A stretch of DNA of 37,733 nucleotides from Candidatus Woesearchaeota archaeon (GTDB lineage Archaea > Nanobdellota > Nanobdellia > Woesearchaeales > JACPBO01), in the NCBI GenBank assembly GCA_016180285.1, contig JACPBO010000022.1, positions 1 through 37,733 of the forward strand, given 5' to 3'. Positions 16,979 to 35,857 of this stretch are shown in pieces. Made by a program: the position numbers and the translations under genes. Positions within the stretch are counted from its first letter, which is position 1. Each line of letters opens with the position of its first letter. The notes under the pieces were generated by a model that worked only from the letters and a program-made list of their open reading frames with translations, ran no database searches and was not told the origin of the DNA.

Positions 16979-17106
16979 AAAACCACCAACATAGATGGGC
17001 GGCATGTCGCTATTGTTTACAGCATCAGGTGGTTTTTGAGCATGCTCAAAAATTTTCCATATGCTGAAACTGGAGCGGCTTTCAGCCACCAATCCAAGAT
17101 TGGTGG
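16979..17106. repeat. nested inverted repeats at the core/accessory boundary
   Basis: Three inverted structures follow each other. AAAACCACC (16979-16987) is complementary to GGTGGTTTT (17028-17036). A perfect 20-bp palindrome, TTTTTGAGCATGCTCAAAAA, spans 17033-17052. A 9-bp inverted repeat CCACCAATC (17086-17094) and GATTGGTGG (17098-17106) has a CAA loop. No gene is seen here on either strand. They may be the scar or end of a mobile unit, protein-binding sites, or terminator structures. Confidence 0.7.
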
Positions 17107-17170
17107 AAAATTTTTGACATTTTTATATATAAACAAGTGGAAAATTTTTGACATTTTTATATATAAACAA
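17103..17170. repeat. two perfect 34-bp tandem repeats
   Basis: The 34-bp unit at 17103-17136 is repeated exactly at 17137-17170. Each begins GTGGAAAATTTTTGAC and ends TATATATAAACAA, so each carries a TATA-like box. Perfect identity points to recent duplication or active maintenance. They lie just upstream of the promoter of the accessory block. Confidence 0.85.
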
Positions 17171-17189
17171 CTTTTTATTTTTTACTCAC

Positions 17190-17210
17190 CAATAACAAAA
17201 AATTTATATA
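17190..17210 (+). promoter_or_regulatory. promoter of the first tagged operon
   Basis: CAATAACAAAAA followed by ATTTATATA, 33 bases before the first tagged start. The same 21 bases with one change occur at 21199-21219 before the second tagged operon, so both probably share basal promoter features or a regulator. A purine-rich GGGGGAAGA follows before the ATG. Confidence 0.65.
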
Positions 17211-17242: not shown

Positions 17243-17803
17243 ATGCCAAACCTAGCTGATAAAATTATGGAATTAGAGAAAGAAATAAGTGGAATCCAGG
17301 ACGAAACTAAAAGAGAGAATTTACAAAGACAGATTGATGAGCTAAAAACAAAATATCAGTCAGAATTAGAAAATTTACAAAATCAAATTAATAAGTCTGA
17401 AGAAACAACACCACTTTATTTTGATAGAGAAACAGATGTCTTAAAAGGATTTTATGATGGAAAAGATGGTGAGCGGGTAAATGTTGATGCTGTATTTGGT
17501 CTTATTAAGCGCTCATTCTTTGATAGATTGGACAATGTCAATATTTTTGGCCGTGGTTATTATGGTCCTGATGTTAAAGAAGCTAAAGAAGAACTGAGAG
17601 AAATGGTAAGAAAAGAAGCCTTATCTAGGGCCAAAATTAAAGGCTATGATGCAGTTCTTATTAAAGAAGATCAAAAAGAGGATGTGTTTTGTTTTAAGGT
17701 ATTGAATGCAGTGCCTAAAGAAGGCGGTGCTAAAATAACTTTCAGAGCATCATCTGATATTTACTTTTATAAAAAGAAAGAAAATGCCGCAACTAATCAA
17801 TAA
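17243..17803 (+). CDS. tagged protein 1: MPNLADKIMELE tag plus small alpha/beta domain
   Basis: The 186-residue form starts MPNLADKIMELEKEISGI, matching the tags of the next three genes, which fixes the start at 17243 rather than 17228 or the long upstream open frame. The tag runs into a coiled coil (to about residue 52). The rest (60-180) is a predicted alpha/beta domain with EALSRAKIKGYDAVLIKEDQ and a strand-rich end; no family recognised with confidence. GGGGGAAGA precedes the ATG. Its end overlaps the next gene by 20 bases in another frame. Confidence 0.7.
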   Translation: MPNLADKIMELEKEISGIQDETKRENLQRQIDELKTKYQSELENLQNQINKSEETTPLYFDRETDVLKGFYDGKDGERVNVDAVFGLIKRSFFDRLDNVNIFGRGYYGPDVKEAKEELREMVRKEALSRAKIKGYDAVLIKEDQKEDVFCFKVLNAVPKEGGAKITFRASSDIYFYKKKENAATNQ

Positions 17804-19214
17804 AATAATAGAACTGGAAAATGAAATAAAGGAGATTAAAGAGCAAGAAAAGAATGCAAAAATAACTAAGTTAAAGAAAAAATCAGCAGAACTAGAGAAA
17901 ACATACCCGCACATCATGTATCCCCACACCATTGCCTTGCCTTATTCAGGAAGAAATCCTCAAATAGAGCGGCTATATTTGAAAAGGGGGTTTAAATTAG
18001 GATCTTCAATAGCCGCCTTTATTTTGTTTGTTACTGCTGCCACTGCTGTCATTTCTAATTACAAAAAACATTCTCGGGTATTTCCTGATAAAGGAGTGAG
18101 CAGCGAAGTAGAAGAGACTGTAAAAGAAAAGATTGGAAGAGCGGACAAAGCATTTGCTTTTGCAAAGAGAGATTATAACAGCATATTGAAAGGCGGCATA
18201 ACAAATGAAGAAAAAACAAGATTGCCTGTAATTTTGGATTCTTCGTTAGTTGTCTATGATGGTCTAAATATCGACAAAAAAAGGGCAAAAAGAACAAATG
18301 ATTTAATAGCCGAAATACAAGAAACAATTTCAGCAGAACGATTGTTTGATTCTGCCAATAGTTTATTTGAAAAAGGAAAATATTATGAAGCAAATGACAA
18401 AATTGGCCTTGCGTTAAAAATACTGCCAAAAGAGAGAAAATATCAAGCATTAAATGCAAAAGCCGGAACACTAGGAGCTAAATTAACAGAGTACGATAAT
18501 ATCTTGGGTCAGATTGAGAATAACTTCAATCAACTAATGCAAAAAAGAATGAATGCTGCAGAAATAACGCAGTTAGAATCATCTCTGGCTTCTTTATCTG
18601 GCCTTTATTCAGGTCTTAAAGTTGATGAAAAAAGAATAGAATCTGTCCACAATTTAGAATTGAGGATAAAAAATGCAGTTAGTTATAACTCTGTTTTTTA
18701 TAAAATAAAGGAAGGTATCATTGGCGGAAAATACGGAGATGATAAAGGGGCAAGACAAGATATACTGGCATTGGCGGCTAAGCTTGAAAAAGAAAATTCA
18801 CCATATGCTAAATTTTTATTGGATGATGTTAAGAATCTTAGTTACACCAAATTAGTTAAGGTTGAAGCTAAAACAGAAAGGGTTGTTGATCAAGCTGGGC
18901 ATTATGAGCAGGCATGGGTTCCCCCCGAGTATGAAAAAAATGTAGCAGTAGGTATAGCAAAGGGAACTATTATGGTACTTACCACTCCCATTGCTGTTTT
19001 GATACCGCCTTCTATGAACGAGTCAGAAACTTTCAAGAAGTTTGATAATTGGCTGGGGGATAATGAAGTAAAAGTCAAAGAGGGCCATTATGAAAACAAA
19101 TGGATAGGACCAACTTATAAAGATGTAATTGTTCCATCACATTATCAAAAGATAGAAGTCAATTCCTATTCAGGCACACAAAAAGTAATTGAGGATAACA
19201 TCCCGATAAAATAA
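17784..19214 (+). CDS. tagged protein 2: membrane-anchored coiled coil with GHYE module
   Basis: A 476-residue protein: tag MPQLINKIIELENEIKEI (1-18), coiled coil to about 40, one membrane helix at about 72-91 (GSSIAAFILFVTAATAVI), a long helical region (110-350) with a TPR-like stretch near 185-225, and a C-terminal module (354-476). The module contains GHYEQAWVPPEYE, GHYENKWIGPTYK and HYQKIEVNSYSGTQKVIEDN. The same module ends the protein at 21767. The gene starts inside the end of gene 1, without a clear ribosome binding site, so translation is probably coupled. Confidence 0.75.
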   Translation: MPQLINKIIELENEIKEIKEQEKNAKITKLKKKSAELEKTYPHIMYPHTIALPYSGRNPQIERLYLKRGFKLGSSIAAFILFVTAATAVISNYKKHSRVFPDKGVSSEVEETVKEKIGRADKAFAFAKRDYNSILKGGITNEEKTRLPVILDSSLVVYDGLNIDKKRAKRTNDLIAEIQETISAERLFDSANSLFEKGKYYEANDKIGLALKILPKERKYQALNAKAGTLGAKLTEYDNILGQIENNFNQLMQKRMNAAEITQLESSLASLSGLYSGLKVDEKRIESVHNLELRIKNAVSYNSVFYKIKEGIIGGKYGDDKGARQDILALAAKLEKENSPYAKFLLDDVKNLSYTKLVKVEAKTERVVDQAGHYEQAWVPPEYEKNVAVGIAKGTIMVLTTPIAVLIPPSMNESETFKKFDNWLGDNEVKVKEGHYENKWIGPTYKDVIVPSHYQKIEVNSYSGTQKVIEDNIPIK

Positions 19215-19215
19215 A

Positions 19216-20172
19216 ATGCCGCAACTAATTGATAAAATACTGGAACTAGAAGAAGAATTGAAAAGAATAGAACTAAAAAGAAGGACATTTGTAATAACTA
19301 ACATGGGAGACATTACAGGAATGGAGTTAGGTGAGAATCAAACACTAAAAGAAGCAAAAAGACTGTTTTGTGAATATAGAAAAGCGTTAAATGGTACTCT
19401 GATTAAAAAGATGATGGTTGGTTCAATAAGAAGCAAATTAGAAACCATCCTAAACGAGACCATAGAAACACCGCCAAATTCTTCAAACTACAACCATGAA
19501 TGTGCGCTTCTTATCAAAGGGTCCTTGTCGCTTCTTGAAAACAGGTATGATGACGCAATAAACCTATTATCAGGTCTTAACTCATTCCCAGCACTTAAAT
19601 TATTAGGTATTGCGTACTATAGAAATGGCGATTTGGATAAAGCAATTGATAGTTTAGAACAAGCACTCCAGCTTTCACCAGATGCAGAGACTTACAATAT
19701 ACTGGGTGGAGTTAAACAAAGAAATAGGGATGTTGACGGAGCAATTGAGGCGCATAAAAAGGCGTATGACATTGATAATTCTAACAAAGAGGCAAATACA
19801 GAGTTGGCAAGGCTTTATAGGGAAAAAGCAGCAACTTTAGAAACCGAGGTGCTTAATGAGTGCAATGTTGACACAGCTGTTTTACCTGAATTCAAAAGCG
19901 CAAGAACTGCTTATAGCACTAAGAATTATGAAGTAGCAAGATCATTATTTCACAATGTAGTTTCAGCACTTGCAAGCTCAAATGAAGATAATAAATTAGT
20001 CAAAGCAAAAGCACTGCATTACCTTGCCTGCTTATCAACAGAATCTAGAGACCAAATAGGGCACTTACGGCAATCAATTGATGCAAAGGCTACAAAAGAA
20101 GCATATAAAGACATTGTAAAGGTGCATGAAATTTCATTAACCACATCAAAAGAAAATGCCAAAACTGATTGA
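19216..20172 (+). CDS. tagged protein 3: TPR-repeat protein
   Basis: A 318-residue soluble protein: tag MPQLIDKILELEEELKRI (1-18), then a helical region and TPR units around 94-123, 125-157 (LGIAYYRNGDLDKAIDSLEQA-LQLSP) and 158-190 (GAIEAHKKAYDID). TPRs bind peptide segments, so it could dock other members of the assembly. The start is two bases after the previous stop with no ribosome binding site; the last 17 bases overlap the next tagged gene. Confidence 0.75.
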   Translation: MPQLIDKILELEEELKRIELKRRTFVITNMGDITGMELGENQTLKEAKRLFCEYRKALNGTLIKKMMVGSIRSKLETILNETIETPPNSSNYNHECALLIKGSLSLLENRYDDAINLLSGLNSFPALKLLGIAYYRNGDLDKAIDSLEQALQLSPDAETYNILGGVKQRNRDVDGAIEAHKKAYDIDNSNKEANTELARLYREKAATLETEVLNECNVDTAVLPEFKSARTAYSTKNYEVARSLFHNVVSALASSNEDNKLVKAKALHYLACLSTESRDQIGHLRQSIDAKATKEAYKDIVKVHEISLTTSKENAKTD

Positions 20173-21187
20173 TAAGATTATGGAACTAGAGTACGAAATC
20201 AAAAGACGACATTCTGCAGAGATAAGAAAGAGGGTTAAAATGGGCATTATCGGATTTGTTGCTATTGGCCTGATTTCCTGTTTAGGTTATTTTAGTATAA
20301 GGAATTCTAGAAGTAGAGAATCTGTAGTTGAAACAACCAAAGTTGAAGAAGTAAAAAAGCCTGTTTATGAAATGCCTGTTGTTGAAAAAGAACACGTTGC
20401 AACTTATGAAAAGCAGATTAAAAAAAATACATTATCTGTTCCCTACGTGGGAAGTGAAAAATCTAAACCACTACAAGAAGAACATAAAAAATCCGAGGCT
20501 CAAATTTCATCAAAAACTGAGAAAAAATCATCATCTTATTACAACCCGCTAAAATTGATGAAAGACCATAACTACAACACACAGCTTTCTGGCATAAAAA
20601 GAAGATTTAATAATTTAAGCGAAATGCACAAAGAAGAAGAGAAACTGCTCAGAGAGATGTACAAGATTTTTCCCGGTGGCGAAAAAGGACCAATTCCAGT
20701 TGCCGAAAAAGAGTGTTTTAATGCTTTTATATGCAATTCAATGTTGGAAGAGATAATACAGTCCGGCAAAAAACAGGGCATTGACACAACAGAGGCAGAG
20801 CAATTAGACGACCAAGTAGATAATAAAATTCTCTATCAGTTTGAAGACCTTTTCATGTTTTTTGCAAGAGGAATGAAAAAACTGAGAGAAAATGAAGATT
20901 TCTGGAAAAAGAATATTGATGCTGAGCCAAATGACATATCTGCTTATTTAAAAAATTATCCATGGGATACTATGTATCCTACTTTTCTTGATTATTTACA
21001 TGAAATGACAGAATACCGGCAAAAAAGCGGTTTTAACATATCATCCACTAAACTGAATGATCATGAGCTATTTTCAGCATTAGCCAAAAAACTGTCTGAA
21101 AAGGCAGAAAAAGGCGAATATAGAATAAGAGACGCCAGACTCAAAGAGGATTTTTATAAAAAAATTGAGGAGCTCGCAAAAAAATAA
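20156..21187 (+). CDS. tagged protein 4: membrane-anchored helical protein
   Basis: A 343-residue protein: tag MPKLIDKIMELEYEIKRR (1-18), membrane helix at about 29-48 (MGIIGFVAIGLISCLGYFSI), a polar linker rich in Lys/Glu/Ser (55-125), and a helical domain (135-340). LISC resembles a lipobox, but hydrophobic residues continue past the Cys, so a plain anchor is likelier. The domain is not recognised. It is the last gene before a new promoter at 21199. Confidence 0.7.
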   Translation: MPKLIDKIMELEYEIKRRHSAEIRKRVKMGIIGFVAIGLISCLGYFSIRNSRSRESVVETTKVEEVKKPVYEMPVVEKEHVATYEKQIKKNTLSVPYVGSEKSKPLQEEHKKSEAQISSKTEKKSSSYYNPLKLMKDHNYNTQLSGIKRRFNNLSEMHKEEEKLLREMYKIFPGGEKGPIPVAEKECFNAFICNSMLEEIIQSGKKQGIDTTEAEQLDDQVDNKILYQFEDLFMFFARGMKKLRENEDFWKKNIDAEPNDISAYLKNYPWDTMYPTFLDYLHEMTEYRQKSGFNISSTKLNDHELFSALAKKLSEKAEKGEYRIRDARLKEDFYKKIEELAKK

Positions 21188-21198
21188 TTTTCACTTGT

Positions 21199-21219
21199 CA
21201 ATAACAAAAAGTTTATATA
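21199..21219 (+). promoter_or_regulatory. promoter of the second tagged operon
   Basis: CAATAACAAAAA followed by GTTTATATA, nearly identical to 17190-17210. A strong ribosome binding site (GAGGGGAGG) precedes the ATG at 21252. Confidence 0.65.
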
Positions 21220-21251: not shown

Positions 21252-21734
21252 ATGGCAGAAGAAAATCCGCTTGAAACGAAAATAAAGGAATTAGCAGAAA
21301 GAGCCAAGCAGTTGCATGAAGAGGAAGCAAGCGGCAGCAAGGCAAAAGAAGCATCTATTTATGAGGAATTTGGAACAAAAAAGGCCACGTTGATTTCTTT
21401 GGTAGATGAATTGCCTTATGATCCATCAACCGGGCTGCCCGTGCCTGAAAGACTTAAAGAAATAATGGAACAAGATACGGCATTAGGCGCATATGCAAAA
21501 AGCAATAGCATAACTGACAAAGTTAAAAAAGAGCTTAATGAAGTAGATGAAAAAATTGAAAAAATGAGAGAAAAAGCTAAAACGACCTTGGTATCAGCAT
21601 TATTTCCTTACGGCTTAGAGCGCGTTGAGGATAATGTTAAAAATTTTGTAGACAAAAAGCCTTTTGGAAAAGATGAAAGAAGGGGCTTGGAAATATGCAA
21701 AGCGGTGTGCCGCAGCTTGAATTTGCAATATTAG
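21252..21734 (+). CDS. second-type tagged protein A: short helical protein
   Basis: A 160-residue protein starting MAEENPLETKIKELAERAKQ, a tag shared with the gene at 21767. The rest is soluble and mostly helical, with a Pro-containing middle (ELPYDPSTGLPVPERLKEIM) and a coiled coil (about 95-120). No family recognised. Strong ribosome binding site and own promoter. Confidence 0.7.
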   Translation: MAEENPLETKIKELAERAKQLHEEEASGSKAKEASIYEEFGTKKATLISLVDELPYDPSTGLPVPERLKEIMEQDTALGAYAKSNSITDKVKKELNEVDEKIEKMREKAKTTLVSALFPYGLERVEDNVKNFVDKKPFGKDERRGLEICKAVCRSLNLQY

Positions 21735-21766: not shown

Positions 21767-22567
21767 ATGGCAGAAAAAAATCCTCTTGAAGAGAAAATAA
21801 AGAAATTAGAAGAGAGAGCCAGGCAAATACAAGATGAAAATGCTCAGACTGCGCCTTCTTCTGCAGATGAAACATTTAATGCATTTTTACTTCCCCCTTT
21901 ACCCGAAGTCAACCAAAAAAAGGCCGTAGAGTATGCATCATTTCCAGAAAAATACAATAATCTTGAAAAACGAACAGGAAGCTGGTTGAAAAGAGGCATA
22001 GTTGGTGTAATTGGATTGGCTATCTTTGGTTTGCTCGCATATGCTTATGTATCATCAAGGCCAATTAATCGCTTTCATTCAAGATTGAGTAATATTAAAG
22101 AGAATATTGCTCATCAAAAATACGACGGGCTTACAGAAAAGGTAAGAGCATTAGCAACTGATGTAGGAAAAGAAAAGCCTACTGTTCCCACTAAAAAGAT
22201 TTTAGAAGAATTACAGTCACTTACTTATAAAAAATCAATAAAGATAGAAGCCAGAACTGAAAGAAGGCTTGTTAAAGAAGGGCATTACGAGCAGGTTTGG
22301 GTGGAGCCACAGTATGAAACGAAGACAGTAGACCCGGTCGGAAATGCAATCGGATCAGTTTTACAATGGCTTCCATTTAATTGGTCAGTCAGCCACAGTT
22401 TACCTGTTAAAGAAAAAACTGTAAAGGTCAAAGATGGGTATTATGAAAACAAATGGGTTGCACCAGTTTATCAAGATATAACTTTTCCTGCGCATTACCA
22501 AAAAATAGAAATCAACCCCTATAATGATACGCAAAAAGTAATTGAAGATAACATTCCAATAAAATAA
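21767..22567 (+). CDS. second-type tagged protein B: membrane anchor with GHYE module
   Basis: A 266-residue protein. The start at 21767 is fixed by the tag MAEKNPLEEKIKKLEERARQ, preceded by AAAGGT; an in-frame upstream extension overlaps the previous gene and is rejected. It has one membrane helix at about 79-98 (GIVGVIGLAIFGLLAYAYVS) and a C-terminal module (154-266) homologous to residues 354-476 of tagged protein 2, including GHYEQVWVEPQYE, GYYENKWVAPVYQ and the identical end KVIEDNIPIK. The long central helical region of protein 2 is almost absent. Confidence 0.75.
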   Translation: MAEKNPLEEKIKKLEERARQIQDENAQTAPSSADETFNAFLLPPLPEVNQKKAVEYASFPEKYNNLEKRTGSWLKRGIVGVIGLAIFGLLAYAYVSSRPINRFHSRLSNIKENIAHQKYDGLTEKVRALATDVGKEKPTVPTKKILEELQSLTYKKSIKIEARTERRLVKEGHYEQVWVEPQYETKTVDPVGNAIGSVLQWLPFNWSVSHSLPVKEKTVKVKDGYYENKWVAPVYQDITFPAHYQKIEINPYNDTQKVIEDNIPIK

Positions 22568-22588
22568 GCGTCATGCCAAAAAAGAGAT

Positions 22589-22624
22589 GTTGTACTTTCA
22601 GCTACAACATAAGTTTATATAAAA
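22589..22624 (+). promoter_or_regulatory. operator copy 1 with TATA box
   Basis: GTTGTA (22589-22594), eight bases, TACAAC (22603-22608), then AT and AAGTTTATATAAAA (22611-22624). The dyad abuts the TF-B recognition/TATA region, so bound protein should block or guide initiation. It drives the 62-residue gene at 22692. Confidence 0.75.
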
Positions 22625-22691
22625 TATCCGCTTAACAAGCATAAGATTTTCAGAAAATACGGAAAAACAATGAAAAACGGAGGTTGAGAAC

Positions 22692-22880: not shown

Positions 22881-22940
22881 TGGAACTTTTTTGGTTAATG
22901 CAAAATATGCGCATTGATTAACATATTATCTAAGAAATAT

Positions 22941-22978
22941 GTTGTACACTTAACCACAACATAACTTTATATAAAAAA
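22941..22978 (+). promoter_or_regulatory. operator copy 2 with TATA box, ahead of the regulator gene
   Basis: GTTGTA (22941-22946), eight bases, CACAAC (22955-22960), then an AACTTTATATAAAA box. The right half differs by one base from the other copies, as expected for a weaker autoregulatory site. The leader to the gene at 23064 is about 60 nt and contains an imperfect inverted repeat (TTTTTCCAAAAA / TTTTTTGAAAAA). Confidence 0.7.
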
Positions 22979-23063
22979 TTCTATCAGAGTAGCTTAACTT
23001 TTTCCAAAAACATATGATATTTTTTGAAAAAATGCCTATTATTCAACAAAAAAGGGAAATTAA

Positions 23064-23516: not shown

Positions 23517-23523
23517 TGCCGCT

Positions 23524-23559
23524 GTTGTACTTCCGACTACAACATAAGTTTATATAAAA
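23524..23559 (+). promoter_or_regulatory. operator copy 3 with TATA box
   Basis: GTTGTA (23524-23529), eight bases, TACAAC (23538-23543), then AAGTTTATATAAAA (23546-23559). Spacing to TATA is identical to copy 1, and the following leader (AGATTTTC through GAAAATAC) is also similar. It drives the small genes from 23619. Confidence 0.75.
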
Positions 23560-23618
23560 AATCCAACTAACAATCGTTAGATTTTCCGAATATCCAGAAA
23601 ATACCGAGGAAACACAAA

Positions 23619-25005: not shown

Positions 25006-25488
25006 ATGTCAGACAATGAAAACGGCTATAAATTCGAAATATTTGTTGAAAAGCTGTACAAAAACCTTGGAAAGGACAATGTGCAGCGGAACTTATTGCT
25101 AGCTGACAGAACTAGCAATAACGGCCAGAGATGCCAGATTGACCTGGCATTTGATGACTGGCTTGCAAAGCGCTATGTGGAATGCAAGTATTACGAAAAT
25201 ACAAGCGTTCCATTTGGTGATGTTGAAGAGTTTGTAACCAAGCTCGGAAAAATAGGAGCAGAAACATGCCAAGGAATAATGGTTACAAACAGCAGCTTTA
25301 TGCCATCAGCAATGAAATATGCAAAAGAGCATGGCTTGCATTTGATCGATGGCCTAAAACTTGAGGAAATATACCGGAAAAGCTGCTTATGCGACTGCGA
25401 CTTCATTCAATTCATCAAGTACAAATTTGGAAAAAGATCATTGGGAGATGAGGTTAACAAGATTGAATTAAAGAAAGAAAATAGATAA
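25006..25488 (+). CDS. Mrr-like restriction endonuclease-fold protein
   Basis: A 160-residue single-domain nuclease candidate. GYKFEIFVEKLYKNLG is the opening helix with conserved Glu (E11); the catalytic core is D46 in QIDLAFDD and E59-C-K61 in VECKYYE (PD-(D/E)xK). GIMVTNSSFMPSAMKYAKEH-GLHLIDG is the typical last part of Mrr-type domains. It could cleave modified or foreign DNA, or resolve DNA structures. The C-terminal CLCDCD is unusual. It is two bases after the previous stop and overlaps the next frame. Confidence 0.8.
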   Translation: MSDNENGYKFEIFVEKLYKNLGKDNVQRNLLLADRTSNNGQRCQIDLAFDDWLAKRYVECKYYENTSVPFGDVEEFVTKLGKIGAETCQGIMVTNSSFMPSAMKYAKEHGLHLIDGLKLEEIYRKSCLCDCDFIQFIKYKFGKRSLGDEVNKIELKKENR

Positions 25489-25511
25489 TGATAAAGAAGG
25501 AGGAAAACAAA

Positions 25512-26627
25512 ATGACTGAAGAAAATAAAAACCCTGGAACTGGAGGAGAAGGTGCTTTTTTTGGAGGTGCAGGTGCTCCACCAAATTCAACAGCAACCGC
25601 AACACCAACACAACTTGATACTGAAAATGGCAACGGTGTTTTAACTGATGCGCAAAGAGAAGTGCAAAGGACAATAAGAGAAAAACACGGCATCGATATT
25701 TTTGCTGAGAGTTTATTTGACCAAGAAGCTGGAAAATTCGTAGGGGATGACGAGGCATTAAAACATTATTATGAACAGCAAAAAAAAGAATATAAAAGCT
25801 TGATAAAGAGAGCGGCAGATACAGTAGTTGAACATGTACAAAAATTCAATATTAAACAAGTTGTAGATAAAATAGCCAGCAGTACAGGAGATAGAAAAGA
25901 GTTCTTATTTAGTACTAAAGATGCCATTCCAACAGGAGCATTGGAAAGGGAAATACAAGGTTTAACTGAAGATAAAGCGTTACTTGAAAAAGCACAAAGT
26001 GTGACTCAAAAAACAATTAATACACTTGAAGATAAATGTGATGAATTTCATAGAAAGGGCGAAGAAGCAAAAAACAGGACATACCAAAATGCGAAAAAAG
26101 CTTCTCAGGCAGAAAAAGAAATGGCAAGATTAGTAGAAGAAAGTCAGAAGATAGATACCAATTACCGAGCAAACAAAATAAGCTATGAGAAATCAATGGA
26201 AGAAAAATACAATATCAACCAAGAAATCAGAAGACAAGACAATATCTACCGGGTCGCAAATTTATCGGTGAAAAAAGAAAAGATAATTGGAAAGCTATCG
26301 GAGCAGAGCGAGAAGATCTACAAATATATGCTGCAGGACTTTTACTGGACCGAGCTTAGCAAAATTAGCACTGGTTTAACAGAAGTGGAGTACTCAATCA
26401 GTTTAAGGAAAGAAGTGCTAGATATGATGATAGACTTAGGAGACAAAAATATCTTCGAGAGGAATAAAATAATTGATAGAATAAGGAAAAAAGAAGGGAT
26501 ATTTGTTGGAACGTTAGAGAATGTTAAAACTTTACTAAAACATTACGCAGGAGAGAATGAGCGCTATATCAGCGAAAGTGAATCACCACTGCTAAAATTC
26601 AAAATCGAAGATAGGCTATTGTCTTAA
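25512..26627 (+). CDS. coiled-coil protein with Gly-rich N-terminus
   Basis: A 371-residue protein. Start 25512 is chosen because AAGGAGG lies 8 nt upstream; ATG 25488 overlaps the previous stop. Residues about 8-40 are Gly/Ala/Thr/Pro-rich and likely disordered; residues about 140-260 are a long coiled coil (EKAQSVTQKTINTLEDKCDE and onwards). No membrane segment. It may be a structural partner of the downstream ATPase. Confidence 0.7.
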   Translation: MTEENKNPGTGGEGAFFGGAGAPPNSTATATPTQLDTENGNGVLTDAQREVQRTIREKHGIDIFAESLFDQEAGKFVGDDEALKHYYEQQKKEYKSLIKRAADTVVEHVQKFNIKQVVDKIASSTGDRKEFLFSTKDAIPTGALEREIQGLTEDKALLEKAQSVTQKTINTLEDKCDEFHRKGEEAKNRTYQNAKKASQAEKEMARLVEESQKIDTNYRANKISYEKSMEEKYNINQEIRRQDNIYRVANLSVKKEKIIGKLSEQSEKIYKYMLQDFYWTELSKISTGLTEVEYSISLRKEVLDMMIDLGDKNIFERNKIIDRIRKKEGIFVGTLENVKTLLKHYAGENERYISESESPLLKFKIEDRLLS

Positions 26628-26645
26628 TTTATTTTTTTATTTTTT
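26628..26645 (+). terminator. T-rich run after the coiled-coil gene
   Basis: Seven and six T in a row (TTTATTTTTTTATTTTTT) between the stop and the next gene could end or attenuate transcription. The next gene is only 30 nt away without an obvious promoter, so partial read-through is likely. Confidence 0.35.
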
Positions 26646-26656
26646 AGGTGATTCAA

Positions 26657-28228
26657 ATGAGCAAAGTAAAGGTAAATCCAGACATAGTTGAAAAATATAG
26701 GCGATACTACAGGAATGAAGTTAATGATGGTTTTAAAGATGTAATCATTTCAAAAGACTACGATGACATATTGCACCTTCCATCATTAGATACGCTTGTT
26801 ATTCTAAATTCCTTTGTTGAATGCTGGGCTATTTATGGTGCTGTATATGAAACTTTAAAAGATTATTTCTCACTCAGTGATGGAAAGTTTGGTCAAAAAG
26901 ACCACATGAAATTAAATATGGTTTCAATGTTTGCCGGAATGTTAAGCGGGTATAATTTCATTAACAAACAGATACCGGATGATGTCCCTGTTCAGGCAAT
27001 TAGTGTTAATTATACAAGCACAAATCCTTTTTTCGATGCAAAAAATTTATGCACCGGTGTAATAAGGCGCAAAGTTCCTCAAAGTTCTAAAGAGATAGCC
27101 TTGATTATGAAAGTTTTCTACAATAGCGTTCTTAATGACATCCTCAAAAAGAAAGCAGAATACCCTGACCTTGACGCGCGGATGAATGAGCTCTGCCCGA
27201 TACAGGTTAATGGGCTTGAAATTACCGGCTTTACAACCCAGCAGATTGCAGCTCCGCAGCTTGAATTTTCAACAGAGTGGTCTGAGCTTGTCGGCGTGGA
27301 CAATGCAGCCAAACTGCTTTCAAAATACAGCTCTCAACTTTTTCTTTACGATCCCGAAGAATGTGATAACTTTGAAAAAAAGCTCATACCATGGACAATT
27401 CTTCTTTATGGCCCGCCTGGAACAGGCAAATCCTCTATTGCAATGGCCATGGCAACGCAGATGCAGCGTTATTCAAAAGCATATGGAATTCCTTTCTCAT
27501 TTACACTAATAGATGGTGCTGTAAAAAGCGAATGGTTTGGAAAATCAGGAGCAATATTAAGGGAAAAGCTGCAGGATGACCCCAAAAAAGTAAGCCTTAA
27601 GGTAATTGATGATATTGACATGGTATTTCAAAGCAGAGAAGATCTTAATCCAAGTCCAGCTCAGAAAGAAATTTCACAAGTTCTAATGTCTTACATTTCA
27701 GGAATAGGCACAGGGTACAAGGGCAATACTTTGCTTGTAATGACAACCAATTGTAAGACAAAAGCAGCAATTGATCCAGCTGTTTTGAGCAGAACTAAAA
27801 AAATGATTAAAATATTGGGTCCTGTAAAATCATCTGACTACATAAAGTTAATGCAAATTAAAACTAATGATTCCTTAACCAAGCCATTTGTAAAGTTATC
27901 TGCAGATGATTATGTCAAGATTGGCGCGCATTGTGAGGGAAATCGCCCTTATGAGGAGAATCGCCCTTATGAGGAGAATCACCCTCATGAGGAGAATTAC
28001 ACTCATGAGGAGAATCACTTTTCAGGCCGCGATATAGATAATATTGTCTCAATTATGTTGAACTACATAGTCCCAGAAGGCCCAGTCCCAATTGAGTACG
28101 GAAGATTGAGCAAAGAAGAGCGAAAACAAGCCAGAATAAGAACTTATAGGCCAATAGATATGAACATATGCTCAAAATTATTTAAAGAATATACAGAAAG
28201 CAGACAGGAGGAATTTAAAGGGCTTTGA
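26657..28228 (+). CDS. AAA+ ATPase with a tandem repeat in the lid
   Basis: A 523-residue protein. The N-terminal region (1-205) is unrecognised. The AAA+ core has Walker A LLYGPPGTGKSS (K258), Walker B LKVIDDIDMVF (about 315-325), sensor 1 MTTNCK (N365) and an arginine-finger-type SRTKK (R379). The C-terminal lid has FSGRDIDNIV, as sensor 2. Immediately before it are 4-5 copies of a six-residue repeat (GAG GAG AAT CGC CCT TAT type). Its classical GPPGTGKS core suggests protein remodelling of the FtsH/CDC48/ClpX-like kind rather than DNA replication. ATG 26657 follows AGGTG; GTG 26648 is the alternative. Confidence 0.88.
   Translation: MSKVKVNPDIVEKYRRYYRNEVNDGFKDVIISKDYDDILHLPSLDTLVILNSFVECWAIYGAVYETLKDYFSLSDGKFGQKDHMKLNMVSMFAGMLSGYNFINKQIPDDVPVQAISVNYTSTNPFFDAKNLCTGVIRRKVPQSSKEIALIMKVFYNSVLNDILKKKAEYPDLDARMNELCPIQVNGLEITGFTTQQIAAPQLEFSTEWSELVGVDNAAKLLSKYSSQLFLYDPEECDNFEKKLIPWTILLYGPPGTGKSSIAMAMATQMQRYSKAYGIPFSFTLIDGAVKSEWFGKSGAILREKLQDDPKKVSLKVIDDIDMVFQSREDLNPSPAQKEISQVLMSYISGIGTGYKGNTLLVMTTNCKTKAAIDPAVLSRTKKMIKILGPVKSSDYIKLMQIKTNDSLTKPFVKLSADDYVKIGAHCEGNRPYEENRPYEENHPHEENYTHEENHFSGRDIDNIVSIMLNYIVPEGPVPIEYGRLSKEERKQARIRTYRPIDMNICSKLFKEYTESRQEEFKGL
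27935..28024 (+). repeat. 18-bp tandem repeat inside the AAA+ gene
   Basis: Units at 27935, 27953, 27971, 27989 and a partial one at 28007, each starting GAGGAGAAT (first GAGGGAAAT). They encode EENRPY, EENHPH, EENYTH and similar. The first units are nearly identical, the later ones diverged, typical of slippage expansion. Confidence 0.9.
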
Positions 28229-28233
28229 AATCA

Positions 28234-30696
28234 ATGAAAATGGCAGAAGCAACAGCTGTATACGAAAAATCGCAAAATACAACGAACAGAGAAGAGCTAG
28301 TTAGAAGAATAAAGGTCAGCCCGGGCATGGATTATTATCTCGGCATTAAAAACAAGCTTCTGCAACTGAATGTTTCCGGCGTTTCGCTTGAAAATGCAAA
28401 ATTATTAAGGCAGATCGCAGATGAAATAATTCCCGATATAAGAAGAGCTGCGTCATTCCATACAGAGCCTTTTGACCCGGTTGAAAGGCAGGGCCTGGCA
28501 GAAGTAAAGGGCCTTGAATCATTAATTAAAAATGCAAGAAGAACAATGGTTGAAGTCGTCAAAAAAAATATAGAGTCCATTGAAACTTATGGAAAAAAAG
28601 AGCTAAATATCTCAGATATTGATTATCTGCAGAATTTTCCATTTGAGATCAGGGAATCAATCAGAATATTGTGTTGTGATGATGTAATAAGTGCAGCAAA
28701 AGTCAGCAATCTTGATGCAGTAATCAGCAGCATAATAAAAAATTACCATGAAAAACAAAAACAAGGCAGAGAGCTGATCAACAGCAATCTTGGCTCTTTG
28801 GCTGCAAGCCATTATTCTATTACATTAAATGACAGCACAATAAATGACAATCCCTTTGTGATGTCACCCCATTTATTGTCTTATGTTCAGGAAAGAACAA
28901 AGAATGCTGCAACAGATGAAGACAAGGCAAAAGCTGTATTTGACATGATTGTTGATTATGTAAAATATGGGGGGGACAAAAGAGGGGACAAAACTTATAG
29001 AAATGCAGATGAGACATTCAAGACAAAAGAGGGCGTTTGCGGCGAGATGGGCTATCTGTATGTTGCAGCAGCAAGGGCATCTGGCCTGAAGTCAAATATT
29101 GCCGAAGTGGATATTGATGAAAGAGGCGAAAAGGTATGCCATGCATGCGCCTCTGTCGAGCTGAATGGAAGAACTATTCTTGTTGATCCGGCATACCAAA
29201 CAATTGATGCAAAGCATAAAAAATTTAAAATAGTGACTGATGAAGAAGCAAGGGAAAAGTACAAGCTATACAACGGCTTAGAAGACAAGGTTGATGTTGC
29301 TGTAAAAGACGCTTCTATTTCAGAAGAAGAAAAAAATGATGCCGTTAAAAAATTAAAGGAGCCTGATTATCTGTTCAAGGTAAAGCAGGCTTTAGATTTG
29401 ATGATTGTAAAGGAAGATGAGGCAAAGCTCATAGCTTATCTGTCTTGCTTCAGCAGCAGATTTCCAGATTATGTTCTGCCTGTCCATGCTTTTATACAAG
29501 CGCAAAGCTCAACAGGAAAGACGCATTTGATTGATACTGTTGTTAAGCTATTCCCAGATCAGAATATTATTGCAATCAACAGGGTAAGCGATGCTGCATG
29601 GGATTATTTTAAAGAATCATTAGATGGAAAAGTAATGACAATTGAAGAATTTCATACTCTGACAGACAAAGCAATGAGAATTTTGCTTCCTAAATTATGG
29701 AAATCTGAAAAGCAAAGCAAGATTACAGTCATGGATAATGGCGAAAGAGTTACAAAATCAATCGGGCCGAAAGGACTCCCAGCGTGCTTAGCTGCTTCAT
29801 GCAAGGATTTCCCATTTGAAGTCATGAATCGCGGAATATTGGTTTCACTTGATTATTCGAGAGAACAAACCAGGCTAATTAACGAGCACAAGGCAAAAAT
29901 TAGGGCTTTCCCGCAGATGACTGAAGAAAAATTCTCAAACTTAAGCAAAGAGTATGCAGACTGTTATGTTGCAATTAAACCCTATAATAACTTTTCGCCT
30001 TTTCTCCCGATATTAAATAACTTCCTTATCGGAGGAGTAACTGATAGGAGAAACTTTGAAAAATTAGACCTATTGTCAAATGTAGTTGCCCACATTAACC
30101 AGTTTCAAAGACCCATCATTTCAATTGATGAAAAAGAAACAATACCTGTTTTGATCTCAGATATTTATATTCCATTAAGCCTGCAGAGAAAATTTTTAAT
30201 AGAAAACAGCTGCTTGGATAAGAAAGCAATTGAGCTTTACAAAGTGATCCAGGGCAATAATGGCATTTCATCAGTACAATTAACAGAAAAGATAAGAAGC
30301 TGCGGTCCAGAAAGCTCCTTTGTTTCAGCATCGAGGAAATCTGAAAGGGAACTGCAATACGAAATTGGCTCTTATCTCGCTCAATTAAAGGACTTCAATT
30401 TCATCTCGCAGTCAGATTCAACATATTCAGTAAACCAAAGTTTAGCTTCGCGCTTTGATTTAAATGATATGACAATCAATCTGAAACCTATAGAAGATGC
30501 ACTGCACAGCTTAAACCAGCAGAGCCAGGATGCAACTGCAAAGATGGGCTTAAGCTACAATAAAGACAAGAATGGCTTTGAATGGCAGAATTATAAAGAA
30601 AATCTAGTTGATCCTTTAACAGGGGACAAACTGCTGATCAAGGTTGAAGCTTTAGATGGAAATGGAAAAATAAAGGTGGAAAGATGTAATGAATGA
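28234..30696 (+). CDS. transglutaminase-like / P-loop ATPase / winged-helix fusion
   Basis: An 820-residue protein. Residues 1-185 are helical. A transglutaminase-like cysteine peptidase fold follows (about 230-340) with Cys269 in KEGVCGEMGYLYVAAARASG, His303 in VCHACASVELNG and Asp318 in LVDPAYQ. Next is a P-loop ATPase (about 395-560) with Walker A QAQSSTGKTHL (K429), Walker B-like VMTIEEF and sensor-like CLAASCKDF; this AxSSTGKT type resembles phage/plasmid primase-helicase ATPases. Last is a winged-helix region (about 660-735, ELYKVIQGNNGISSVQLTEK). The start is uncertain: TTG 28225, ATG 28234 and ATG 28240 are all possible. It overlaps the next gene by 8 bases. Confidence 0.8.
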   Translation: MKMAEATAVYEKSQNTTNREELVRRIKVSPGMDYYLGIKNKLLQLNVSGVSLENAKLLRQIADEIIPDIRRAASFHTEPFDPVERQGLAEVKGLESLIKNARRTMVEVVKKNIESIETYGKKELNISDIDYLQNFPFEIRESIRILCCDDVISAAKVSNLDAVISSIIKNYHEKQKQGRELINSNLGSLAASHYSITLNDSTINDNPFVMSPHLLSYVQERTKNAATDEDKAKAVFDMIVDYVKYGGDKRGDKTYRNADETFKTKEGVCGEMGYLYVAAARASGLKSNIAEVDIDERGEKVCHACASVELNGRTILVDPAYQTIDAKHKKFKIVTDEEAREKYKLYNGLEDKVDVAVKDASISEEEKNDAVKKLKEPDYLFKVKQALDLMIVKEDEAKLIAYLSCFSSRFPDYVLPVHAFIQAQSSTGKTHLIDTVVKLFPDQNIIAINRVSDAAWDYFKESLDGKVMTIEEFHTLTDKAMRILLPKLWKSEKQSKITVMDNGERVTKSIGPKGLPACLAASCKDFPFEVMNRGILVSLDYSREQTRLINEHKAKIRAFPQMTEEKFSNLSKEYADCYVAIKPYNNFSPFLPILNNFLIGGVTDRRNFEKLDLLSNVVAHINQFQRPIISIDEKETIPVLISDIYIPLSLQRKFLIENSCLDKKAIELYKVIQGNNGISSVQLTEKIRSCGPESSFVSASRKSERELQYEIGSYLAQLKDFNFISQSDSTYSVNQSLASRFDLNDMTINLKPIEDALHSLNQQSQDATAKMGLSYNKDKNGFEWQNYKENLVDPLTGDKLLIKVEALDGNGKIKVERCNE

Positions 30697-33600
30697 GGCA
30701 ATTGATTCAAACAGACAGGGAGATTTATCGGATTTGAAAAAAACAAAGAGCGAGGTAGACAAAGGAATAACAGATAATGGGCCATCTCAATTGGCTGTAA
30801 ACAGAAGAAGACTTGAAGCAAGGCTAAAGAATAACAAAGTAATAGATCATTATAAAACTCTTGCTTCAAAACTAACAACATCTATAAGGTCTGAAATTCT
30901 AGATGATTTAACCACAATATTGGCCTTTCCAGAAGAGATGGAGCAAGATTTTATATGCAGAGGAAGTTTTTATTGCGCTTCTACAGACCAGCAAGTTAAT
31001 GAAGGTTTGAGTTTAATCGATAAAGTAAAAGGCAGGAAAGAAGGAATTATAAAGGAAGTTTATTCAAAATTAGAAAAAGATTTAGGCAATTTCCAGGGCA
31101 GTATTGGAAAATCATTTAAAAACCTGAATGAGCATCTATCATCATTAGACGCCTTAAAAAAGAATCTTGAAAATTATGCTAAATTCTTCAATTGGGTTGG
31201 TGATGAAGAAGCCAAGAAAAAACAGCAGTCAGTTAACGATGCAATAAAAACGATTGATAGCAGGTATTCTGATGTTAAAAAATCTGAAAATGGTTTAAAA
31301 GGCATTGCAGAATGCTTTGAAAATCAATTTTGGGATACAAGCAATATAACTGAGCTGAATGAATTAAAAAAGAAAGCATCAGATTATATGAAGCAATGCG
31401 ATTATAATGACCTTAAACTAAAATCAGCGGGCTTACTGCAGAATATTGATAGAAAACAGAAGGCAATTAGCCAGTTCAAAAGACAAAAATTTTTAGCAAA
31501 TATACCTCTCATTGGAAAACTTCCACTTAAAGAAACAGACATAAAAGAGATCCAAAGTGAGATCGACTTCAACATTGAAGAAATTAATAAATACATGCTG
31601 GAAATCCAGAAACTGCCTTCTGCACCACAAAGCATAGATGAACTGAAAAAACTTAGTTCAGTTATAGACTCCTCAAAATACAAGCCTTATTCTAATTTAC
31701 TCATATTTCAAAACGGAATAGAAAAATACCATAATGCAATAGAAAATTTAAAGGCAGCAGGGCAGGAGAAAATTGAAGCAATCAATAAAGGGCTTATCGG
31801 GGAATATGAAAAAATAAAGGCAGGCCCGATAGCGCCAAGCAGTCTCTCAGAACTTGAAAATATGCTGGCAAAGCCGCAAGATAACAGGCTTGATTGCCTT
31901 TTGCAGGCATTCGACTCATTAGGCAATTCAGAATATTCTAGAAATGCAAGAATTTTAAAATCTGAAAACGAGAAAAGGCTGAACGAACTCAAAGAAGATA
32001 AAACAAAGTTAGAAAAAGAAAAAGATGAATTAGCTGAATATTCAACAAAAGCGAAGCAACTTGAAAGAGAGGCCAAAGATAAGGATATTTTAGAGATGGG
32101 TAATGGAAATATTGTGGTATTGAAAGAGCTATTCAGTTATAATCTGCCTGATACGCAGCAGGTTCACCATGAGTTGCTTAAGTCATTGAGTGAGGATGTC
32201 AAAAAGAAGATGAACGCATTTAAATCCGATAAGGAAGTGATTAAATCAACATTAACTGAAAAATTAACAGATAAATACAATGAATTAAAAAGAGACTATA
32301 ATGGAAAAGGCAAAAATCTTGAGGAAGATATTGCAGCAGCAAAGTCTTGTGAAGAAACAACAGAAAAATTAATTTCACGTTATTCAGAAATATCTTTGCC
32401 AATACTCTCAGATTTACAAAAATTAAAGGGAATAGTTATTTCTGCTCGTGAAGAAAAAGAAAAGCTTTTATTTGCAAAGGACGAAATAATTGACAAATGC
32501 AAGATTCTTGAAGAAGTACTTGATAAGCTCGATAATCATACGAATGGTACCATTAAAAATGGCTTGGCTGCCCAGCTCAGAGAGCTAAATCCTGTTCTGT
32601 TCGATGGATATGAAGGCCCATATCTAAAGGATAATGCCAGACATTACAAGGCTCTTGTAGAAACCATACAGGAGAAGAAGCTTGAAATCGTCTGTGATGT
32701 TGAACTTAGAGATATAAGCTCAAAAGTTGAACAGAGGACAGGTGCGCTGGATAAAGACATAAGCGAATTGAAGAACGTGCAGCTTAAAACGCAGGATTTT
32801 ATTGGCAAATACAGTAAGGAATTGGCGCTTACAAAGCAAACTGAAGAAGCCAAAAATCTGCAGCAAAAGATCATGTCTTTGCTCAGTGAATACGCTTCAA
32901 TTCATGGTGCGATTGACAAAATCAACAATAACTATGACATAAGCAGCAGGCTTAAAGAATTGTCTGCAATAAAGGACAACCTTGAGCTGTCAGAGCAGGC
33001 TTTGGGCAAGATAAAGGAAATAAAAGCAGTGCAGTTTGATGGCTATGCAGCTGATAGGTTCGGCTACAGCGCAGAATTGATTGAAAAAAGGAAGAAGCTT
33101 GCTGAGGAGTTCAAACTTGAGGCATCTGAATTGCCGACACTACTGGAAAACTTGTTTAAAAAGGAATACAATAAATTAAAAGCAATTTATGAACCAAACA
33201 AAGAAGAGGTCGTATCAGACTGCAAGAAGGAAGCAACCAGATTTATGAATTTAAAACAAGAAGCACTATTGGATGATTCTGATTTTAAGCTGTTTTTGGA
33301 GGAGATTATAGAGATGGAAAAAGTATATGAAAAAAAGAAGAAAGAGACTACAGCCTTCATTACAGGTAAAGAAATAAAAGACGATGAATATGAAATGCCA
33401 TTAGTAGGTATAAAAATAAAACCTATTAAGGAGAAAACATTTCACATATTAAAGCAGAAATATTTTAATCAAAAACAGGAAAAAGACAAAGGTGCATTTC
33501 AAATATTGAAGCAGAAATATTTTGATCAAAAACAAAAAAATCAAATATCTGAGTTTGATAGAATTACAAATAGATGTTCTCTCTCGCATTTAGATTCTTT

Positions 33601-33895
33601 AACCTGCCCTGATAACCTTGAGTATATTGATCTCAGAAGCATTCTTTTAGAAAATGGCAATATTAAAGACTCTCTTAGGATTAAAAGATTTATGAGAAAA
33701 TTGGAAGATTTTGAACGTAGGGGAGAATTTGCAAACGGGAATGATATCGCTTACTTAAAAGGAATGAAAAATGTATTGGAGCAGTATATTGAAGAAAGCT
33801 CGGATGGGAATATTTCAAATGCAATAAAAATATTAAACGAATATATAATCACATCAAAAAAGCAAATAGATGAAGTATCTTGTTTGAGGTCTTGA
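30689..33895 (+). CDS. giant coiled-coil protein with KQKYF repeats
   Basis: A 1068-residue protein, almost entirely helical and Lys/Glu-rich, with extended coiled coils (notably 400-470 and 520-880), reminiscent of SMC-like or scaffold proteins but without nucleotide-binding motifs. Residues 918-955 hold two copies of FxILKQKYF(N/D)QKQ, a repeat also found at the end of the protein at 34045. The final 110 residues form a separate helical domain. It is translated from AAAGGTGG and overlaps the preceding ATPase gene. Confidence 0.8.
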   Translation: MNEAIDSNRQGDLSDLKKTKSEVDKGITDNGPSQLAVNRRRLEARLKNNKVIDHYKTLASKLTTSIRSEILDDLTTILAFPEEMEQDFICRGSFYCASTDQQVNEGLSLIDKVKGRKEGIIKEVYSKLEKDLGNFQGSIGKSFKNLNEHLSSLDALKKNLENYAKFFNWVGDEEAKKKQQSVNDAIKTIDSRYSDVKKSENGLKGIAECFENQFWDTSNITELNELKKKASDYMKQCDYNDLKLKSAGLLQNIDRKQKAISQFKRQKFLANIPLIGKLPLKETDIKEIQSEIDFNIEEINKYMLEIQKLPSAPQSIDELKKLSSVIDSSKYKPYSNLLIFQNGIEKYHNAIENLKAAGQEKIEAINKGLIGEYEKIKAGPIAPSSLSELENMLAKPQDNRLDCLLQAFDSLGNSEYSRNARILKSENEKRLNELKEDKTKLEKEKDELAEYSTKAKQLEREAKDKDILEMGNGNIVVLKELFSYNLPDTQQVHHELLKSLSEDVKKKMNAFKSDKEVIKSTLTEKLTDKYNELKRDYNGKGKNLEEDIAAAKSCEETTEKLISRYSEISLPILSDLQKLKGIVISAREEKEKLLFAKDEIIDKCKILEEVLDKLDNHTNGTIKNGLAAQLRELNPVLFDGYEGPYLKDNARHYKALVETIQEKKLEIVCDVELRDISSKVEQRTGALDKDISELKNVQLKTQDFIGKYSKELALTKQTEEAKNLQQKIMSLLSEYASIHGAIDKINNNYDISSRLKELSAIKDNLELSEQALGKIKEIKAVQFDGYAADRFGYSAELIEKRKKLAEEFKLEASELPTLLENLFKKEYNKLKAIYEPNKEEVVSDCKKEATRFMNLKQEALLDDSDFKLFLEEIIEMEKVYEKKKKETTAFITGKEIKDDEYEMPLVGIKIKPIKEKTFHILKQKYFNQKQEKDKGAFQILKQKYFDQKQKNQISEFDRITNRCSLSHLDSLTCPDNLEYIDLRSILLENGNIKDSLRIKRFMRKLEDFERRGEFANGNDIAYLKGMKNVLEQYIEESSDGNISNAIKILNEYIITSKKQIDEVSCLRS
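33440..33553 (+). repeat. two 57-bp repeats encoding FxILKQKYF
   Basis: Units at 33440-33496 and 33497-33553 encode residues 918-936 and 937-955. The first differs from the unit at 35185-35241 in the downstream gene by only about 4 of 57 bases. Confidence 0.88.
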
Positions 33896-34044
33896 AATAA
33901 TAATAGGTGGAATCAATATGTGTTAAAACTAATGAGTAACAAAAAATGAAAAAAACTTGCTTTCTCGTAATAAAAATCAGAAAAGTATATAAACCACCTT
34001 TCTTTATCGGTATCTATCTAATAGTAAGAACAGTGGGGGGCATA
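33896..34044 (+). promoter_or_regulatory. promoter and leader of the dehydrogenase-like gene
   Basis: A TATA box (AAGTATATAAACC, about 33979-33991) is followed by a leader with GTGGGGGGC a few bases before ATG 34045. It separates the last section from the upstream operon. Confidence 0.6.
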
Positions 34045-35361
34045 ATGAATGGTTCCATAGAAGAGCTCATTTCAAAATCTGCAACGAGCCAAGTCGAAGT
34101 AAAAAATGAGATATGGAAATCGGGACTTAGGCAGGTTTCAGATTGGGATGAAAAATTTAATCTATTTTTTTATGGATTTGGTGAAGTGGCAAAATATAGT
34201 CTGGTTTATATGTCGGCAAATTACGAGCGTTTTTGTGATAGAATAAACGAAGTATATATTTATGATACAGGCCATATAGATGTAGAGCATATTAAACGGC
34301 AAATAAGAAAACTAAAGGTTAATCCATATTTTGGTAAAGAACAGATTGAATATAAGTTAAAAACCAAAGACCAATTTAATATTTTCTTTTTGACAGCTAA
34401 GAAGAGAGAACGAGAAGACCGTTATGATGCAGCTGAAGACAACGAGATACTAATAGACGAAATTGCACCTCTTTTTTCAGAAGACTATAAGGGAGTTGTG
34501 TGTATTGTAACAAACTTGCCTGAGATCCTCTCTTATAAATTAGCATTGAAATCAAAATTGAAGCCAGAGCAAATATTTGGTTTTGCCCACGTCGATAAAT
34601 TCAGGCTCGATAAAAAGATAGATGAATTTCTAAAAGACAAATACGGGTATACTTTTTTTACTTCAACGGCATTTTTTAAAGGTGTGCATGCAAGACCCAG
34701 ATGTATTTTTAATGGGGCAAAAGTTTTTTACAAAGATGAAGAAGGATTGAAAGATGAGTTCCTTAAAAATCTTTTTGACGAATCTGAACTTGAAGAAATT
34801 AGGCAGCAGGTAAATAAAAAACCAAAAGAGCTGTATAATCTCGCAACTAAAATAGGGACATCTCCAACTGCACTTGAAACAGGCGAGGCAATAAGTGAGC
34901 TAATATACAACATCATTATGAATACCCACTTGGTTGTTAATGTTGATCTGCCATTTAAATATAGCGGCTTTCCTCAAATGTATATTGAGTTACCTGCTTA
35001 TTTTGATAAAGGAAAACCATTGATATTAACAGATCTTCTTAAAAATTTAACTGATGAAGACAAAATGGAAGTTAATGAGTCTTTAGAAAAGTTAAATGAA
35101 CAAAACACAAATAGATTTGGGTGTATTGGTTTAGAAGAACTTGATATTGGTAATCTTGAGTCTGGTGAGACATTCGATACCACATTTTACATATTAAAAC
35201 AAAAATATTTTGATCAAAAACAGGAAAAAGACAAAGGTGCATTTCACATATTAAAACAGAAATATTTTCAAATAACAAAAAAGGATAATGCCATATTCCA
35301 AACAATAAAGCAGAAATATTTTGATCAAAAGCAGGAAAAAGATACTACTATTGAAAATTAA
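34045..35361 (+). CDS. lactate/malate dehydrogenase-superfamily protein with C-terminal repeats
   Basis: A 438-residue protein; start fixed by GTGGGGGGC and by the weak, hydrophobic upstream extension. It matches the LDH/MDH order: dinucleotide loop FYGFGEVAK (43-50), Asp ending strand 2 (D74), mobile loop with Arg (121-126, KKREREDRYD), CIVTNLPEILSY (N157), HVDKFR (D184, R187), FFKGVHARP (H215), and a C-terminal helix/strand pair GEAISELIYNII and VVNVDLPFKYSG. The Asp-Arg-His catalytic set appears kept, so an NAD-linked dehydrogenase, or a family 4 glycosidase relative, is possible. Sequence is very divergent. Residues 381-438 are three KQKYF repeats, unknown in this superfamily. Confidence 0.72.
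   Translation: MNGSIEELISKSATSQVEVKNEIWKSGLRQVSDWDEKFNLFFYGFGEVAKYSLVYMSANYERFCDRINEVYIYDTGHIDVEHIKRQIRKLKVNPYFGKEQIEYKLKTKDQFNIFFLTAKKREREDRYDAAEDNEILIDEIAPLFSEDYKGVVCIVTNLPEILSYKLALKSKLKPEQIFGFAHVDKFRLDKKIDEFLKDKYGYTFFTSTAFFKGVHARPRCIFNGAKVFYKDEEGLKDEFLKNLFDESELEEIRQQVNKKPKELYNLATKIGTSPTALETGEAISELIYNIIMNTHLVVNVDLPFKYSGFPQMYIELPAYFDKGKPLILTDLLKNLTDEDKMEVNESLEKLNEQNTNRFGCIGLEELDIGNLESGETFDTTFYILKQKYFDQKQEKDKGAFHILKQKYFQITKKDNAIFQTIKQKYFDQKQEKDTTIEN
35185..35358 (+). repeat. three KQKYF repeats at the end of the dehydrogenase-like gene
   Basis: Units start at 35185, 35242 and 35296, encoding FYILKQKYFDQKQEKDKGA, FHILKQKYFQITKKDNAI and FQTIKQKYFDQKQEKDTT. Together with the two units in the preceding gene they form a five-copy family across two proteins. 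Confidence 0.88.
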
Positions 35362-35375
35362 TGGAGGTAGGTAAA

Positions 35376-35855: not shown

Positions 35856-35857
35856 AA

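Follow-up and report, generated by a model that had tools for sequence, protein, structure and literature searches.

Unrelated proteins of adjacent Woesearchaeal genes share short N-terminal starts, putative docking peptides of their transcription units

Four consecutive genes (17243-21187) of a Candidatus Woesearchaeota archaeon encode proteins that have residues 1-15 in common (MPxLIDKIxELExEI, here called tag A) and whose bodies are mutually unrelated beyond this tag. They lie in the window analyzed here, which is the entire contig C22 (JACPBO010000022.1; 37,733 bases) of a 1.33 Mb archaeal genome. The next two genes, gene 5 (21252) and gene 6 (21767), have a different shared start of their own (MAExNPLExKIKxL, tag B), MAEENPLETKIKELAERAKQ and MAEKNPLEEKIKKLEERARQ, and a third type of start is found in a genome from another Woesearchaeota family (G081). 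As the best explanation, and a probable one, we propose that each tag is a putative docking peptide, a short helix by which the products of one transcription unit are labeled for assembly with one another. We favor this explanation because unrelated proteins of one unit begin with one 15-residue amphipathic start, because the two units of one genome differ in this start and the distant family has a third one on ten genes, and because each complete unit holds one membrane protein with a common C-terminal beta domain (CTD) together with at least one soluble protein.

Two tagged units and the conservation of their starts

The ATGs of the tag A genes are at 17243, 17784, 19216 and 20156, and the proteins start with MPNLADKIMELEKEI, MPQLINKIIELENEI, MPQLIDKILELEEEL and MPKLIDKIMELEYEI, exactly as quoted in the original prediction, which had been made from the letters of this DNA. 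Its claim that the tag precedes unrelated domains is likewise borne out, as the four bodies are a soluble alpha/beta protein that opens with a coiled coil, a CTD-bearing membrane protein, a TPR protein (match to Pfam TPR_2, E value 9e-13) and another membrane protein. The four-gene shared start stands, but the extent given for it, 17243-20210, does not: the unit runs to 21187, and the next two genes carry a different tag. The two copies of tag B are 81% identical in DNA over 74 nt, and the bodies of genes 5 and 6 are unrelated. The features of both units, all on the forward (+) strand, are listed below (ORF, open reading frame).

17189..17210, +: promoter-like element CCAATAACAAAAAATTTATATA of unit 1, separated from the first ATG by 32 nt; its partner at 21198 is at equal distance from its own ATG
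17243..17287, +: tag A copy 1, MPNLADKIMELEKEI, from the sequence and from an AlphaFold2 model with a separate helix 4-15, a break and a helix 21-52
17243..17803, +: gene 1, 186 amino acids; tag, coiled coil and soluble alpha/beta domain; no transmembrane segment predicted
17784..17828, +: tag A copy 2, MPQLINKIIELENEI
17784..19214, +: gene 2, 476 amino acids; tag, transmembrane segment (72-90), helical region, CTD
18684..19211, +: CTD of gene 2, a domain common to both units, contig C40 of the same genome and G081
19216..19260, +: tag A copy 3, MPQLIDKILELEEEL
19216..20172, +: gene 3, 318 amino acids; tag followed by TPR repeats; no transmembrane segment predicted
20156..20200, +: tag A copy 4, MPKLIDKIMELEYEI
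20156..21187, +: gene 4, 343 amino acids; tag closely followed by a transmembrane segment (30-48), then an extended helical stretch; contig C40 may carry a homologue
21198..21219, +: promoter-like element TCAATAACAAAAAGTTTATATA of unit 2
21252..21311, +: tag B copy 1, MAEENPLETKIKELAERAKQ, a DNA repeat found by sequence comparison
21252..21734, +: gene 5, 160 amino acids; tag B, then a soluble protein without known family
21767..21826, +: tag B copy 2, MAEKNPLEEKIKKLEERARQ, a DNA repeat; of 751 ORF starts, the one that best matches the tag region in the CTD protein of G081
21767..22567, +: gene 6, 266 amino acids; tag B, a transmembrane segment (77-95) and a CTD that is a homologue of the gene 2 CTD
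22073..22564, +: CTD of gene 6

The promoter-like element, CAATAACAAAAA(A/G)TTTATATA, starts 53 nt upstream of the ATG of gene 1 and 53 nt upstream of that of gene 5, and no further match with fewer than three mismatches was present in the 0.7 Mb of the same genome that were scanned. Because the same element precedes genes 1 and 5, and because tags and CTD proteins are separate, the six genes probably form two transcription units, and each of these has a tag and a CTD membrane protein of its own besides one or more soluble proteins.

Other repeats lie close to the two units. Upstream of unit 1, a 34-nt sequence is present in two exact head-to-tail copies (17103-17170). An inverted repeat, TGTTGTA...TACAACA, occurs in three copies, one of them imperfect (22588-22627, 22940-22979 and 23523-23562), right before a TATA-like box; these repeats, around a gene for an Lrp/AsnC-type regulator (23064), are likely operators.

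Chance is excluded as the source of the tag A likeness. As a control, the first 16 residues of adjacent same-strand ORFs were compared for 2,346 neighbor pairs in 706 kb of the same genome (0.71 of 1.33 Mb) and 1,590 pairs in 569 kb from 37 other genomes of the order, 3,936 pairs in total. Pairs among genes 2, 3 and 4 score 53-58 (BLOSUM62, residues 2-16), with strongly negative scores downstream; gene 1 fell outside this comparison, as its automatic ORF call began further upstream. Full-length paralogues excepted, no non-tag pair among the 3,936 (1.28 Mb) resembled the tag pairs, the remaining pairs reaching at most 34. In the window's own genome, scores above 34 were restricted to this locus's tag pairs and to full-length paralogues, and the three pairs above 27 from the 37 other genomes are all homologous through their bodies as well. 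Candidate tag pairs in two genomes (G059, L141, and G002, L109) also turned out to be full-length paralogues. The original prediction had proposed a profile search of this and related genomes; run with tag A, it returned five places in the whole genome of the window, namely the four window genes and one relative on contig C40. The same profile gave isolated weak matches in the 287 other genomes of the order, in numbers not above chance expectation (16 genomes, E values 0.003-0.1); a match in G024 is a coiled coil inside a protein and not a protein start.

The DNA-level similarity described in the original prediction is confirmed, with identities of 0.69-0.82 among the tag A copies over codons 1-15, and it falls to about 0.23-0.40 upstream of the ATG and past codon 15. 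Both in this array and in that of G081, DNA likeness rises at the ATG and drops past codon 15, and the flanks are near background. Over codons 2-15, the proportion of synonymous differences (pS) is 0.62 against 0.18 for amino acid-changing ones (pN) in the window, and 0.36 against 0.07 in G081. Moreover, unique changes are enriched for synonymous ones in both arrays (binomial p 1e-4 in the window and 3e-3 in G081); tag B, with two copies only, yields counts too few for this comparison. Judged by these patterns, the conserved thing in both arrays is the peptide and not the DNA. Selection on the peptide as such is supported by its sharply defined boundaries, by the large excess of pS over pN, by its return in a distant family and by the presence of one tag per transcription unit, in agreement with the modular amphipathic N-terminal peptide originally envisaged.

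A third array and the common CTD

The third start type was reached via the CTD profile. In Candidatus Woesearchaeota archaeon DPANNHV_H2.bin.19 (G081; contig JAAOYC010000022.1), ten consecutive genes (5-9014 of L014) begin with MPKQExLEEQLRKIK (pattern M[PAT][KR][QDE]E[PS]LEEQLRK[IV]K). The bodies behind this tag comprise TPR repeats, three GXGXG beta-helix proteins, two related helical proteins and others, the last being a CTD membrane protein; for the helical proteins (4101 and 6782), no convincing relatives were found elsewhere. The assembly is 78% complete, and the array may be longer because it begins at a contig edge. In three of the proteins, the CTD protein included, a short linker is followed by another, degenerate copy of the tag (QESLEKTLGKIK, KESLEESLGKIE and KEPLEESLGKIE). 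The second copy in the CTD protein is the nearest counterpart of the tag of window gene 6 (PLEESLGKIEKEAKQ versus PLEEKIKKLEERARQ, ranking first among 751 ORF starts). When 257 billion bases were searched with a degenerate DNA pattern compatible with tag B and most of the G081 tags, the matches were the G081 array and two single sites in unrelated organisms; near relatives of the window genome were possibly excluded from this collection. Homology of gene 1 to the first G081 gene received no support from BLAST.

The CTDs of genes 2 and 6 are homologous (E value 1e-38). Contig C40 of the same genome bears a fragmentary third locus, in which the end of a CTD protein is followed by a membrane protein starting with MANLEDAVIKLENGVINYRK that may be related to gene 4. 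A PDB sequence search with the CTD gave no credible match, and viral contigs scanned with the CTD profile, the G081 CTD protein and the gene at 28225 contained no relatives of them; the CTD alignment (A5) was too divergent for a contig pattern search.

On contig C87 of another genome, G041 (L031, 7793-13936), an untagged CTD-like putative lipoprotein closes a row of genes with a double-ThiF E1-like protein and a weak JAB-like match, from which a link of the CTD to ubiquitin-like conjugation is possible. The window gene at 36329 has weak similarity (E value 0.011) to the G041 protein adjoining the E1-like gene, and homology between the two was rejected.

Docking peptides and competing explanations

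Read from the sequences, hydrophobic residues at positions 4, 8, 11 and 15 of tag A and at 7, 11 and 14 of tag B and the G081 tag follow a heptad pattern, and the helical moment of tag A lies in the 97th-99th percentile among ORF starts. The AlphaFold2 model of gene 1, in which the tag is a helix of its own separated by a break from a second one, has good local and poor overall confidence (mean predicted local distance difference test score 54.7, and 51.4 for the model of gene 6, both low). If the tags are docking peptides, they would face the cytoplasm and attach to one another or to a shared partner, and the soluble alpha/beta, TPR, beta-helix and helical proteins would gather at the membrane round the CTD protein. 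Tags that are alike within a unit and different between units would allow parallel complexes in one cell to stay unmixed. Tentatively, we go one step further: some Woesearchaeal operons may possess an evolving address code, in which all products, up to ten unrelated proteins, bear the operon's own 15-residue helix, assemble on the CTD membrane protein and are thereby kept apart from parallel complexes.

Several observations speak against such docking. The tag consists of two heptads, which is short for a stable stand-alone coiled coil, so that avidity or a receptor would be needed for binding. The helical moment of the G081 tag is only average (64th percentile), and CTD-like proteins in G041 and G224 have no tag. 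CTD homologues occur in three of 288 genomes of the order, tagged units are rare, and tag arrays were seen in the window's own genome and G081 alone, in a search that arrays with other tags and without a CTD escape.

The main rival to docking is a targeting helix, through which one receptor of a secretion, membrane-surface or chaperone system would send each tagged protein to one place without any mutual binding. A common start on otherwise unrelated proteins is a typical trait of targeting signals; the tags are also amphipathic helices, and the nearest non-paralogous background pair in the genome resembles lipoprotein signal sequences. However, general signals are far more variable in sequence, the tags have no hydrophobic core, and genes 2, 4 and 6 possess a transmembrane segment of their own. 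Two tag types that track two transcription units in one cell, with a third in G081, are also a poor fit to one general receptor, and we regard this explanation as unlikely.

Less likely again is a relic of duplication, in which an ancestral gene was copied along the operon and its bodies were repeatedly replaced, the start being merely inherited. True paralogues are present among the ten G081 genes (the three GXGXG proteins and the two related helical ones). Furthermore, where genes 1/2 and 3/4 overlap, KENAxT forms the end of the upstream product and is encoded, in another frame, by the start region of the next gene; these shared ends suggest that the start travelled as a DNA cassette. A passive relic, however, would not stay confined to codons 1-15 in every copy, and here the peptide is kept while synonymous sites are well diverged.

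The original prediction had compared the tags to encapsulation peptides, and this comparison holds in principle. Pdu signal sequences target proteins to one shell-bound core (PMC12108088), and the tags are, like them, short N-terminal amphipathic helices on several proteins of one operon, structural ones included (clearly so for tag A, less so for the G081 tag); they are also alike in length and in the flexible linker seen in G081. Membership in this class is not supported. Pdu signal sequences (residues 1-18 of PduD and PduP) share at most 25% identity within one microcompartment (PMC12108088), whereas the tags here are near-identical within an operon and several of their carriers are membrane proteins. 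In addition, neither the window's own genome nor G081 (78% complete) contains a detectable bacterial microcompartment (BMC) shell protein (PF00936; control matches in E. coli and Synechococcus) or an encapsulin (PF04454; control matches in three genomes). It is very improbable that the tags are encapsulation peptides of a closed protein shell, whether microcompartment or encapsulin. The view that the repeated DNA is a translation-start or regulatory element with the peptide as a by-product, which the obvious DNA likeness at start codons might suggest, is largely refuted, as the likeness begins at the ATG and not in the ribosome-binding region and the changes are mainly synonymous.

The closest known principle is that of the effector-associated domains (EADs) of bacterial conflict systems, in which a small, often all-helical module recurs at the termini of proteins that come from adjacent genes and are otherwise unrelated; the most similar copies are those of neighboring genes, and homotypic coupling has been proposed (eLife 2020, PMC7159879). 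The arrays described here likewise have the same module on unrelated proteins of adjacent genes, with copies closest within the operon. They differ in that the module is a single 15-residue helix and no domain, in their occurrence in Woesearchaeota and in their extent of up to ten adjacent genes. In a Pfam scan covering 15 of the 16 tagged proteins from both arrays, the tags matched no EAD family, the one sub-threshold EAD11 match lying over the TPR region of gene 3, and no STAND, MoxR-vWA, GTPase or other NTPase family match indicated a core NTPase or sensor as in EAD systems. Amyloid signaling motifs of NLR and Bell genes are also short motifs common to neighboring, otherwise unrelated genes, and they form amyloid; the tags, in contrast, are charged heptad helices, and their heptad pattern and helix prediction argue against amyloid likeness.

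No description of such tags in Woesearchaeota was found in the literature searched, which comprised open-licence papers only. If docking is confirmed, labels written in the genome would give cells whose genomes are very small a minimal, modular route to multiprotein assemblies, and the tags would be a naturally occurring set of helices, different for each of several parallel complexes. They would also offer a handle for function-blind genomics, in that a common start predicts which proteins of unknown function belong together.

Other features of the window

Another short motif shared by neighbors, the 19-residue repeat FxILKQKYFDQKQEKDKGA, is present in the adjacent genes 30689-33895 and 33946-35361; the first contains two internal copies and the second three C-terminal ones, at a spacing of 54-57 nt (33437-33540 and 35182-35339). 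The protein of 33946-35361, with the repeats at its C-terminus, has a weak likeness to lactate/malate dehydrogenases (NCBIfam E value 6e-7, well short of the curated cut-off).

Downstream of the tagged units, the region 25006-30696 encodes an Mrr-type nuclease, an AAA ATPase resembling the IetA/TRIP13 defence ATPases and a protein that joins a transglutaminase domain to a second, ATPase-like part. The AAA ATPase gene contains an 18-nt tandem repeat (27931-28020) coding for PYEENR-like units. Two tandem genes at 35361-36298, with no family assigned, encode proteins that are 77% identical.

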